A DNA stretch of 39,641 nt from a virus: positions 1-39,641 of the IMG/VR virus record IMGVR_UViG_3300022204_000009. One strand, written 5' to 3'. Below the pieces are notes generated by a model. That model was not told the DNA's origin. It was given only the letters and a program-made list of their open reading frames with translations, and searched no databases. Positions within the stretch are counted from its first letter, which is position 1, and each line of letters opens with the position of its first letter. Position numbers and translations under genes: made by a program. Of this stretch, positions 18,392-39,641 are shown piece by piece.

Positions 18392-18585
18392 GCACTAGCA
18401 AAATCTAGTGCCGGAATTGGTCTTCCGTTTGGTCAGAGAGCAGGGCTCTCATTCGATGAGCTTTTTTTGTGCCTGTAGAAATATGGCAGGCTGTGCGGGG
18501 CTTCCTTCGGGAAGGCCGATCCTCTGACCGGTAAGACCAACCCCGTGCAGTCTGCCACCCTATTGATTGGTCTCGATGGTGGCAG
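18392..18585 (+). ncRNA. Candidate structured RNA upstream of HNH operon
   Basis: No gene is evident here, but pairing is dense. Arms: GCACTAG (18392-18398) with CTAGTGC (18405-18411); TTGGTCTT (18417-18424) with AAGACCAA (18533-18540); GGTCAGAG (18431-18438) with CTCTGACC (18522-18529); CTTCC-TTCG-GGAAG (18501-18514); GGCAGGCTGTGCGGGG (18485-18500) with CCCCGTGCAGTCTGCC (18541-18556, three G-T pairs); CTGCCACC (18552-18559) with GGTGGCAG (18578-18585). The 16-pair stem crosses the two long-range stems, so the RNA forms a pseudoknot or switches. A second TTGGTCT (18567-18573) competes for AGACCAA. No known riboswitch, ribozyme or group I/II intron core was recognised. Confidence 0.55.
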
Positions 18586-18613: not shown

Positions 18614-18997
18614 ATGTCGGCACAAGTAATAAAACTAAAAGAGTATTCACCCGGTATCCAGCAAGCCACTATTAAGCTTGAGTGGCAGGTGTCCAGTGAT
18701 GCACCTAAAACAGTCGATGATTTATATTTCACGAAGCGCGAACCAAACGGTTGTATCAATTGGTGGGCTGTAACTAAGCCTAGCAATTATTATAGTGCGA
18801 ACTATATGGTAGGAAGGGCGCATGCGTTTGATGTAATTGAGTTAATGTTTAATCCAAAAGCAAAAAACTTAAATGATGGGCTGCTTAGTAATATCGCTAT
18901 AAACATGGCTGAAAACCACAAAACAGACGATGGTGTGATGCGTGGTTTCTTTAGTGCGTTCAGTGAGTTATTGCTAAATGGGAAAGTAGTGCGTTGA
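18614..18997 (+). CDS. Hypothetical protein in HNH insert
   Basis: A 127-residue protein starting ATG 18614 behind AGAGGA, right after the structured RNA. Visible features: IKLEWQVSSDAPKTVDDLYFTKRE, a WW pair in CINWWAVTKP, the helical YMVGRAHAFDVIELM, and a C-terminal GVMRGFFSAFSELLL. Some phage proteins share the WW...GR.YA and GFF.A..E pattern, but the function is unknown. Its stop overlaps the TTG start of the HNH gene (TTGA). Confidence 0.7.
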   Translation: MSAQVIKLKEYSPGIQQATIKLEWQVSSDAPKTVDDLYFTKREPNGCINWWAVTKPSNYYSANYMVGRAHAFDVIELMFNPKAKNLNDGLLSNIAINMAENHKTDDGVMRGFFSAFSELLLNGKVVR

Positions 18998-19782
18998 GTA
19001 GCGCAATTGATATTACTGGACAGCGGTTTGGGAAATTACTAGTAGTTAAACGGGTTGAAAACGATAGTAGTGGTTTCGCTATGTGGTTGTGTCACTGTGA
19101 TTGCGGTAACTCGAAAGTCATCCGTGGTGTTTCTTTGAGAAACGGCAATACAAAAGGTTGTGGCTGTATTGCTGCGCCCGATCATACGGGTAAGCGATTT
19201 GGTGGATTGGTGGTTTTAAAAAAGTTAGCCAATAAAAAGTCGCATTCTAATTGGTTATGCAAGTGCGACTGTGGCGCCACAACTAAGGTTACGAATACTC
19301 GCTTGGTTAGTGGTGCCACGAAATCATGCGGTTGCGGCAGAAAGTCTTTGGATGGGCTAAGCACGTCCAGTCCTCGTGAATACCGAAGCTGGCGAGCGAT
19401 GCTTGCGAGGTGCAATAACCCGGAAACAAGACATTACGAGCATTATGGTGGTAGGGGAATAAAAGTTTGTGATCGCTGGTTGGATTTCACGTTGTTTCTG
19501 AAAGATATGGGACGCAACCCCGGTAGGTTTCACACGCTTGATAAACAGGATAATAATGGTAATTACGAACCGGGTAACTGTGCGTGGGTAGATAAGAAAG
19601 CCCAGGCAAGAAATACACGGCGTAACTTTATTCTTTCATATAAAGGTAAAAAGAAGTGCCTTGCTGAATGGTGTGAGTTGCTAGGTTTAAAATATCACAC
19701 TGTATATTGTCGATTGCGTAATGGTTGGTCGGTGCAGTCGGCACTTGAAGAACCGAAAAAAGTAAACCAGTTTTCAGAATAA
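18994..19782 (+). CDS. HNH homing endonuclease with duplicated zinc ribbon
   Basis: A 262-residue protein starting TTG 18994, overlapping the previous stop. Two tandem AP2-like/zinc-ribbon units open it: TGQRFGKLLVVKRV...LCHCDCGNSKV...GCGC (about 6-57) and TGKRFGGLVVLKKL...LCKCDCGATTKV...SCGCG (about 63-112). The HNH domain follows (YRSWRAMLARCNNPETRHYEHYGGRGIKVCDRW, LDKQDNNGNYEPGNCAW), then a NUMOD-like HTH (AEWCELLGLKYHTVYCRLRNGWSV). It is probably a free-standing homing enzyme that brought the segment 18340-19810 between chaperone and tape measure genes. Confidence 0.9.
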   Translation: MSSAIDITGQRFGKLLVVKRVENDSSGFAMWLCHCDCGNSKVIRGVSLRNGNTKGCGCIAAPDHTGKRFGGLVVLKKLANKKSHSNWLCKCDCGATTKVTNTRLVSGATKSCGCGRKSLDGLSTSSPREYRSWRAMLARCNNPETRHYEHYGGRGIKVCDRWLDFTLFLKDMGRNPGRFHTLDKQDNNGNYEPGNCAWVDKKAQARNTRRNFILSYKGKKKCLAEWCELLGLKYHTVYCRLRNGWSVQSALEEPKKVNQFSE

Positions 19783-37764: not shown

Positions 37765-37863
37765 GTGTTTTTCTTCTACATAATATTAACCGCCATCGCC
37801 ATAGCCGGTGCAATGCTTTGCGTTGAATTTTATTATGCGCTGTTTAAGTTTGATGAAGAATAA
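37765..37863 (+). CDS. Very small membrane protein
   Basis: A 32-residue frame starting GTG 37765: FFFYIILTAIAIAGAMLCVEF then YYALFKFDEE. One membrane helix covers most of it. Its TAA stop forms part of the first attC-like hairpin, as is common for genes in integron cassettes, so it may have entered with that block; no cassette boundary was found upstream. Confidence 0.45.
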   Translation: MFFFYIILTAIAIAGAMLCVEFYYALFKFDEE

Positions 37864-37926
37864 CGTTCGAGCTGTGGGGTGAGGCGCGTTTTTTGCGCCG
37901 AGTCCCACATGAGCGAATTGTTAGGT
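37861..37926 (+). other. attC-like hairpin A (left cassette boundary)
   Basis: Nested arms: TAAC (37861-37864) with GTTA (37920-37923); TTCG with CGAA; TGTGGG with CCCACA; GGCGC with GCGCC around loop GTTTTTT. The right end GTTAGGT (37920-37926) fits the integron core GTTRRRY. The bulges between arms fit extrahelical bases. The left core is only TAAC, weaker than the full RYYYAAC. Confidence 0.68.
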
Positions 37927-37947
37927 TTTTTTGATGAGAGGTGAAAT

Positions 37948-38187
37948 GTGAAAATAGAGCAGAATATAAATATACACGGCATTATTTGCGTTCTTTCTTT
38001 TGAAGTTTCTCACGAAGATTTACGAGAGCTACTAGGAGGCTCAGAATGCGAGTGTTCATTCGAAGAACTGGAAGATCTTCTCCTTCAATGTGGCGAGAAA
38101 ATTCATTTGATGCTTTCTCAATCAGCGAAATCGTTTCATTTAGATCTGTTGACTTCATATGCTAATGCTCTCCGTGATAAATGTTAA
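37948..38187 (+). CDS. Cassette 1 gene, hypothetical protein
   Basis: A 79-residue protein starting GTG 37948 behind GAGAGGTG. It is acidic and helical: VSHEDLRELLGGSECECSFEELEDLLLQCGEKIHLMLSQSAKSFHLDLLTSYANAL. It is not recognised. It sits between two attC-like hairpins, 22 bases after the core GTTAGGT, exactly the layout of an integron cassette with one gene close to its start. Confidence 0.7.
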   Translation: MKIEQNINIHGIICVLSFEVSHEDLRELLGGSECECSFEELEDLLLQCGEKIHLMLSQSAKSFHLDLLTSYANALRDKC

Positions 38188-38193
38188 TCATGA

Positions 38194-38277
38194 ACCTAAC
38201 GCCTATATGAAGCCGCGCCGCACAGGCGCTAAAAAGAATGCCGACAATACCGCGTCGGCTTGCATTAATTGTTAACT
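38194..38277 (+). other. attC-like hairpin B (end of cassette 1)
   Basis: It starts with a perfect RYYYAAC core, ACCTAAC (38194-38200), and ends GTTAACT (38271-38277). Inner arms ATG-AAGCCG (38207-38215) pair with CGGCTT-G-CAT (38256-38265), leaving single extrahelical bases; AAGCCG/CGGCTT is also the arm found in classical aadA-type attC sites. A long loop region fills the middle. Confidence 0.72.
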
Positions 38278-38293
38278 GACAACGGTGAATACC

Positions 38294-38587
38294 ATGATGG
38301 AAGTAAAAGATTATCTGCTGGCATGTCTTAGCGAAGAAAGCGGGGAGATTGCGCAAGCCGTTGGTAAAGCGCATCGGTTTGGGCTGCTAGACAAAAACCC
38401 AGTATCAGGGCTCACAAATTGGGTTGAGCTGAGGGGAGAGGTTCACGACCTTATCGCCGTCTATGAAATGCTGTGCGATAAGTTTGACCAGGCCGAGGCA
38501 TTAGACCGCAAGTTGATCGAGGTCAAAAAAGAGAGGGTTACGGATTACATGGTCTACTCCCACGGCCTTGGGCGGCTTGCCAGTTAA
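38294..38587 (+). CDS. Cassette 2 gene, MazG-like pyrophosphohydrolase
   Basis: A 97-residue all-alpha NTP pyrophosphohydrolase of MazG type (ATG 38294; 38297 possible). Metal ligands: Glu14, Glu15 and Glu18 in SEESGEIAQAVGKAHRFG, and Glu49 and Asp52 in ELRGEVHDLIAVYEM. Length fits single-domain members. Such enzymes remove pyrophosphate from unusual or excess NTPs. It is placed between two attC-like hairpins; MazG-type genes are known cargo of integron cassettes as well as of phages. Its TAA stop runs into the third hairpin. Confidence 0.82.
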   Translation: MMEVKDYLLACLSEESGEIAQAVGKAHRFGLLDKNPVSGLTNWVELRGEVHDLIAVYEMLCDKFDQAEALDRKLIEVKKERVTDYMVYSHGLGRLAS

Positions 38588-38643
38588 CACCTCAATATGA
38601 TGCTTAGCGTTTTTTGCTAAGTCTTCATATTGATTTGTTATGC
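38583..38643 (+). other. attC-like hairpin C (end of cassette 2)
   Basis: TAAC (38585-38588) pairs with GTTA (38637-38640). TCAATATGA pairs with TCATATTGA over nine bases; CTTAGC pairs with GCTAAG around loop GTTTTTT, the same loop as in hairpin A. The right core is GTTATGC, seen also in Vibrio-type repeats. After it the sequence leads directly to the primase ribosome site. Confidence 0.7.
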
Positions 38644-38696: not shown

Positions 38697-39641
38697 TTGA
38701 TTCTCGATGATGTTTATAAATTAGCTGATGACCTGGGGCTGGAAGTTGACAAGCTCAAGCTCGATGGTCAGTGGCATCGTGTGCCGGTGATCGGTAAGAA
38801 AAAGAGTAATAAAAGCGGCTCTTTTTGCTTAAGTGAAATCACGTTGAAGTCTGGCGATACGGTGGTGGTTGGTTTGTTGTGTAACTGGTCGTCTGGCCGC
38901 GAAGAACGTTTGACGCTGGATGATGTGGTTGGTGCTACGTCTGATGAAATTGATGAAGCCAGGCGTCGGGCACGCGCGGCGGCTGAGGCTGGTAAAAAAG
39001 AAAAGGAAAAACTGCAGACGGAGACGGCTAAACGTGCTGAAGAAATTTGGAACCGTTTACCTGAGTCGGGCATGTCGCATTACCTGGGAAACAAGAAGGT
39101 GCTGAATTATGACGTGCGGTTTTCCCGTGGCTCGATTGTGGTGCCTGCGCGTGATGTCGATGGCAAGCTGTGGACGTTGCAGTATATCAATGCTGAAGGT
39201 GAGAAGAAGTTTTTAACCGGCGGCGCGAAGCGTGGCCGGTTTCATTTTATAAAATGTCCCGCAGGGACTCATTATTGTTTTGGGGTTGCTGAGGGTTATG
39301 CAACGGCTGCGTCGTTATTCGATGCGATGGCGCAGCGTTTTTCTATTGCGGTGGCATTTGATGCTGGCAATTTATTGCCGGTTGGCGAAGCCTTGCGTTC
39401 GCGGTATCCCGATTCTCGAATTATCTTTTTTGCTGATCACGATATTTATAAAGGCTATCCGCAGGCTTTAATTCGCGCGCGTGATGCTTCACCGGCTGTG
39501 CGTGAGCAGATCGCACGGCTGGCGCGTGTTCGGCCTGATGTGGCGGTTGAGGTTGTGGCTGATGATGATGCGCGGCTGACTGATCGTGACAAGCATTTTA
39601 ATACCGGCGTGACCAGGGCGCTGCTGGCTGCGGCGGCGGTT
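38697..39641 (+). CDS. Toprim primase, N-terminal part (runs off the window end)
   Basis: An open frame of 315 codons from TTG 38697, with AGAAGG eight bases upstream. It continues at position 2 of the window, for about 330 residues total. Features: a short N-terminal region; MSHYLGNKKVLNYDVRFSRGSIVVPARDVDGKLWTLQYINAEGEKKFLTGGAKRGRFHFI; and the Toprim part with EGYATAASL and FDAGNLLPVGEALRSRYPDSRIIFFADHD. This is the Toprim_3-type primase of P4-alpha/TraC kind. It has no zinc knuckle; the separate zinc-ribbon protein at 199 could supply one. Confidence 0.92.
   Translation, partial: MILDDVYKLADDLGLEVDKLKLDGQWHRVPVIGKKKSNKSGSFCLSEITLKSGDTVVVGLLCNWSSGREERLTLDDVVGATSDEIDEARRRARAAAEAGKKEKEKLQTETAKRAEEIWNRLPESGMSHYLGNKKVLNYDVRFSRGSIVVPARDVDGKLWTLQYINAEGEKKFLTGGAKRGRFHFIKCPAGTHYCFGVAEGYATAASLFDAMAQRFSIAVAFDAGNLLPVGEALRSRYPDSRIIFFADHDIYKGYPQALIRARDASPAVREQIARLARVRPDVAVEVVADDDARLTDRDKHFNTGVTRALLAAAAV
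39488..39641. repeat. Terminal redundancy, right copy
   Basis: Matches 1-154, with four mismatches all in its first 28 bases. It shows that the contig is circular or circularly permuted. Confidence 0.9.

Follow-up and report, generated by a model that had tools for sequence, protein, structure and literature searches.

The analysed stretch of DNA (hereafter, the window) is an entire phage contig of 39,641 bp (C35), one of 99 contigs in the 2.69-Mb, 98% complete assembly of an uncultured gammaproteobacterium. This contig encodes a terminase, a major head protein, a gene of tape-measure size, a VapE-like protein, a primase, a CII-like regulator (Phage_CP76) and a phage integrase, and this gene content, the integrase and the regulator included, suggests that C35 is likely a temperate phage. 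The two ends of the contig share an overlap of 154 bp (97.4% identical), as expected for a circular phage genome; the 4 mismatches between positions 1-154 and 39488-39641 might reflect heterogeneity of the phage population or the presence of two assembled variants. A C4 antisense RNA, the immunity RNA of the P1/P4 type, is found amid the tail-region genes (18479-18562, plus strand; RF01695, 65.6 bits). The tape measure gene is adjoined by a 262-aa ORF (18994-19782, plus strand) in which Cys-rich stretches recur and which is AP2/HNH-like in appearance; as judged by eye, this ORF resembles an insertion of the homing-endonuclease type. A search of the host for the attB site of the phage integrase yielded no convincing match.

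Within the row of plus-strand genes, with the CII gene and several small genes on one side and the primase on the other, the window contains three hairpins, which the preliminary description had interpreted as attC sites bounding integron gene cassettes. All three are present, with limits that we refine to 37858-37926 (attC1), 38194-38277 (attC2) and 38582-38643 (attC3). The left flank is a small, intact phage ORF of 32 aa (37765..37863, plus strand), whose stop codon lies in a TTATTC half-core at the junction. The right flank is the N-terminal part of the phage DNA primase (38697..39641, plus strand; PHROG 2249, E 1.9e-53; matching phage primases), which starts only about 50 bp from attC3 and continues over the contig end.

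The hairpins were compared with two covariance models, both home-made and subject to a short calibration: R1, which was built from 15 attCs of plasmid integrons only, and R2, in which 11 attCs from host arrays were added to the R1 set, so that R2 includes no phage site but is not independent of the host. An ad hoc combination of a sequence pattern with a fold filter produced an excess of chance matches and was replaced by these models. In an unfiltered scan of the whole window with R1, the best match is attC2 on the minus strand (39.5 bits, E 5.4e-8), followed by attC1, also on the minus strand (16.8 bits, E 0.04), a 25-bp palindrome elsewhere in the window (16.7 bits) and attC3, again on the minus strand (14.3 bits, E 0.18), so that all three hairpins are among the top four matches. 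With R2, attC1 reaches 39.0 bits (E 1.5e-6), attC2 28.2 bits (E 3.5e-4) and attC3 13.9 bits (E 0.52). With these home-made models, attC2 scores above background with R1 and attC1 with R2 (marginally with R1), whereas attC3, the outermost and weakest of the three, does not on its own. The attCs in array positions in the host score between 16 and 43 bits with R1, including two at 16.1 and 17.6 bits, which places the phage sites within or just below the range of the host sites. Across 1.09 Mb from 82 sources, namely the window itself plus 81 viral contigs related by terminase or VapE, the two models gave no match besides attC1 and attC2; a search of other viral contigs for attC patterns of the genus type also found none. 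For attC2, R1 (plasmid integrons only) gives a stronger match than R2 (host attCs included), which suggests that the respective cassette (B) may derive from a different bacterial lineage than the other cassette (A).

Compared to dinucleotide shuffles, hairpins 1 and 3 are markedly stable (z of -3.8 and -5.8, respectively); hairpin 2 (z of -1.6) is no better than the shuffles, and its lowest-energy form consists of two small hairpins, with the attC fold lying about 2.5-3 kcal/mol above it. The share of the bottom-strand ensemble in which the R boxes are paired is 0.59 for attC1, 0.06 for attC2 and 0.91 for attC3, compared to 0.02-0.96 among accepted attCs. The apical loop GCGTTTTTTGC is, as noticed previously, common to two of the hairpins, namely 1 and 3, and its two occurrences there are the only ones in the window (0.15 expected). 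The 11-base apical motif GCAAAAAACGC is present in the window only at attC1 and attC3, in the same strand (0.15 expected), and also in attCs of the same genus, again in the same strand; the sharing of this motif with attC1 and the same-genus sites supports the weak attC3.

The core-like motifs reported in the preliminary description are indeed found, GTTAGGT at 37920-37926 and ACCTAAC at 38194-38200. Read on the minus strand, attC1 has the R'' box ACCTAAC (complement of 37920-37926) and the R' box GTTATTC (complement of 37858-37864), attC2 has AGTTAAC and GTTAGGT, and attC3 has GCATAAC and GTTAACT. The AAC and GTT of the R'' (RYYYAAC) and R' (GTTRRRY) consensus are present in all three sites; the 4-base core tails fit fully in R'' of attC1 and R' of attC2 and deviate by 1-2 bases elsewhere, as they also do in the host sites. 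Taken together, these features indicate that all three hairpins are true attC sites of the integron type, with sites 1 and 3 marginal with R1.

The polarity of these sites is shown by the model scores and by alignment. All three score on the minus strand only, and the alignment of attC1 with the same-genus sites fits minus polarity only (0.84 vs 0.59). The opposite polarity was considered and rejected, given that no plus-strand scores are listed at the sites and given this alignment. Accordingly, the previous view of two units running in the same direction as their genes had to be abandoned: the plus-strand ORFs are antisense to the attCs.

The strongest indication that the DNA between the hairpins consists of integron cassettes comes from the core boxes. 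Because a true cassette opens with the tail of its own core, its initial core and its R'' box are complementary. In the same-genus arrays, all four variable core bases match across 31 of the 34 neighbouring pairs, and a match within the hairpin is seen in only 5 of the 56 hairpins. The phage units show the same pattern, with all 4 variable bases matching across each unit (GTTAGGT/ACCTAAC in A and GTTAACT/AGTTAAC in B) and only 1, 2 and 1 of the 4 matching within hairpins 1, 2 and 3. Cores that match across the units but not within the hairpins imply that A and B were joined as cassettes. This pattern is the decisive sign for cassettes and is compatible with their joining either in the phage or prior to capture. 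The cassette boundaries can accordingly be read off directly: cassette A, with attC1 as its recombination site, extends from the G|TT cut in R' of attC2 to the G of R' of attC1 (37864..38199, 336 bp, minus strand), and cassette B, with attC2, extends from the G|TT cut in R' of attC3 to the G of R' of attC2 (38200..38587, 388 bp, minus strand). With three sites in 0.8 kb, two of them strong, and no intI nearby, the locus has the organization of a CALIN (at least two attCs within 4 kb with no intI in the vicinity); it is not a complete integron, which would have intI and attI beside the array. The central claim of the preliminary description, that integron cassettes reside inside a phage genome that has no IntI of its own, is therefore well supported by the model matches and the core-box signature.

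The gene content of the cassettes differs from the initial interpretation. Two plus-strand ORFs (37948-38187 and 38285-38587) exist as reported, but, being antisense, they neither begin where the cassette begins nor run up to its attC. Cassettes usually, although not obligatorily, carry a single gene in the attC sense, and this holds for the longest ORF of most cassettes in the same-genus arrays; in the phage, the gene of cassette B is antisense and that of cassette A is ambiguous. Cassette B encodes a MazG-like NTP pyrophosphohydrolase (38285..38587, plus strand), which lies antisense to attC2 and in the direction of the phage operon, and the stop codon of this gene is the final three bases of the cassette. 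The protein matches PHROG 4856 (E 7.5e-12), shows 35-42% identity to phage NTP pyrophosphohydrolases and contains the EExxE and ExxD motifs (EESGE at 14 and EVHD at 49); its match to the Pfam MazG family (E 0.037) is below the cut-off, and no sequence match above the threshold was found to solved MazG structures. The nearest homologs detected come from phages and plasmids. A search of the cassette ORFs for defence genes produced just a weak match (E 0.026), for the MazG-like protein. Conjecturally, this protein could have a nucleotide-cleaning or starvation-signal role during infection. In cassette A, the candidate gene in the attC sense encodes 58 aa (37982..38158, minus strand) and starts 36 bp past the attC2 core; homolog searches with this ORF found none. 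The alternative candidate, in the sense of the phage operon, encodes 79 aa (37948..38187, plus strand), is preceded by a GAGGTG-like ribosome site and gives a weak match to PHROG 17077 (E 0.01) with no convincing homologs. A codon-usage test did not separate the two strands of unit A. Neither cassette gene was found in the other integrons examined or as a close copy in plasmids. Both plus-strand ORFs follow the phage gene row and are probably read with it.

The absence of an integron integrase, also part of the preliminary description, applies to the phage, where the only tyrosine recombinase in the window is the phage integrase (27367-28338), not IntI, but not to the assembly. The latter encodes a 331-aa integron integrase (L009:3493-4488), whose score against TIGR02249, the integron-integrase family of the NCBI, is 430.6 bits (cut-off 265) and whose best PDB match is the solved IntI structure 2A3V (E 1e-86). 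An attC array adjoins this gene, and further attCs are located on other contigs; outside the phage, 16 attC matches are detected at E < 1e-3, one attC occurring twice, at contig ends, so that the host has at least 15 attCs. One of these matches attC1 directly, at 85% identity over 72 bp. More broadly, attC1 is 80-88% identical to same-genus attCs in 4 of the 6 other genomes of the genus, and in the rest of the family sample only weak matches are seen, in two genomes of other genera. The apparent pairing of this phage with this host depends on binning, that is, the common assembly, and on attC1. Several peculiarities of the arrays were also observed. The array ends on contigs C82 (L009) and C25 (L010) have a cassette start and an attC in common (C82:2032-2100, C25:45784-45852), which points either to the duplication of a cassette or to the coexistence of two variants of the array in the population, and in one same-genus genome (G001, L211-L216), several attCs are located outside the main array, on contigs C20, C47, C9, C23, C1 and C27, as if cassettes were dispersed through the chromosome.

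The reading that we favour, with a probability of about 0.78, is that the locus is a CALIN in a temperate phage and that the host IntI inserted the circular cassettes A and B at a G|TT site at or next to attC3. Under this scenario, the IntI encoded in the same assembly would act on the phage genome itself, recombining the circular cassettes (37864-38587) into a site between the 32-aa gene and the primase. When this segment is removed, attC3 is followed by TTATTC in the rebuilt empty site, and the cores of that site (GCATAAC with GTTATTC) pair better than the present cores of attC3 (GCATAAC with GTTAACT). Presumably, attC3 was in place before A and B arrived; alternatively, its R' might come from a third cassette that later lost its gene. 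The MazG-like gene would be expressed with the phage early operon, as the cassette happens to be reversed, and, should the phage infect another integron-bearing cell, the cassettes could be excised again, with the phage serving as a cassette carrier. Several observations count against insertion by IntI: attC3 is weak on its own, attC1 attains only 16.8 bits with R1, and the cassette genes occur in none of the integrons examined. A cassette-free sister phage was sought by DNA in a phage collection, by the primase, VapE-like protein, terminase and CII in IMG/VR, and by the primase and VapE-like protein in relatives of the host, and none was found; these searches returned distant relatives only, apart from one VapE relative at 68% on a contig that ends before the region.

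The main rival to this reading, which we consider unlikely, is that the phage acquired an existing segment of a bacterial array in one piece, through illegitimate recombination, homologous recombination or imprecise prophage excision, with no IntI acting on the phage. The core match across the units would look identical in this case, an arrangement of three attCs and two complete units would suit an excised fragment, and such routes have been proposed for some phages (Qi et al., 2023; PMC9892861). However, the left junction lies exactly at a G|TT core, directly past an intact phage stop codon, the short interval between attC3 and the primase comes with no truncated cassette gene, the cores of the rebuilt site pair better than those of attC3 do at present, and a matching array segment was not found in seven same-genus genomes or in the wider family sample. 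Insertion by the host IntI might also be part of a more regular process, a suggestion that we regard as doubtful, in which the phage would keep attC3 as a docking site in its early operon and obtain cassettes through the IntI of its hosts; reversed genes, antisense to the attC, would then be favoured because only these are read by the phage operon.

Two other explanations are far less probable. The interpretation of the hairpins as ordinary intergenic structures of the phage, such as bidirectional terminators, that resemble attCs by chance is disfavoured: hairpins 1 and 3 do form strong stems whose loops are rich in T, and parts of hairpins 2 and 3 are picked up by a simple scan for terminators (7 found vs 3.4 expected), but a palindrome maintained as a terminator should match itself, whereas here the cores mismatch within the hairpins and match across the units, and the E-values of the covariance models and the 85% match to a host attC would be left unexplained. 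Similarly, a chimera in which integron DNA was wrongly joined to the phage contig is conceivable for a 99-contig assembly but is highly improbable, given that no identical copy of either cassette or of attC1 is present elsewhere in the assembly, the flanking phage genes are undisturbed on both sides, and the contig ends overlap as in a circular phage genome.

Phage-borne cassettes have been studied previously, and the suggestion that they are rarely described is overstated. In a screen of 10,705 phage genomes, 17 CALINs were reported, one phage had attCs of divergent direction, and IntI1-mediated recombination at attI1 was observed for 5 of the 6 phage attCs tested (Qi et al., 2023; PMC9892861). 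The CALINs in Tetrasphaera phage TJE1, Polaribacter phage P12002L and Pseudoalteromonas phage PH101 from that study resemble the one described here in having at least two attCs, small cassettes and no integrase. In contrast to these, the C35 phage has its own tyrosine integrase and a CII-like regulator and is likely temperate, an integron with an attC closely resembling one of the phage sites is present in its assembly, and its plus-strand ORFs are antisense to the attCs. Prophages of Vibrio anguillarum carry pieces of the host chromosomal integron (PMC9892861) and are thus similar in that the phage-borne attCs are of the host's own integron type, but these pieces are parts of the host array that sit, together with intI, at the prophage edge, whereas the C35 cassettes do not occur in the host arrays that were seen and lie within the replication region. 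Cassette insertion at non-classical attG sites has been described in bacterial genomes (Loot et al., 2024, as presented in PMC12444791 and PMC12901181), and so far as these accounts go, this is likewise an insertion made by IntI outside the integron; the targets there are bacterial genomes, whereas in C35 a phage would be the target, with attC3 already bordering the inserted DNA. A MazG-type gene is also carried as a cassette in the integron of Vibrio sp. DAT722 (cassette 21; PMC2945992); in contrast to such integron-borne cassettes, the C35 protein has its closest detected homologs among phage and plasmid proteins. The two cassettes and three attCs of C35 look as if they derive from integrons similar to the chromosomal one of the host, and this phage-integron traffic is genuine but of a kind already described. 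The new elements in C35 are the presence, within one assembly, of an integron whose attC nearly matches a phage site, a concrete phage-host pair that makes the proposed phage route of cassette movement directly testable, and plus-strand genes that are reversed relative to the attCs and aligned with phage transcription, a possible rule for the survival of cassettes in phages.
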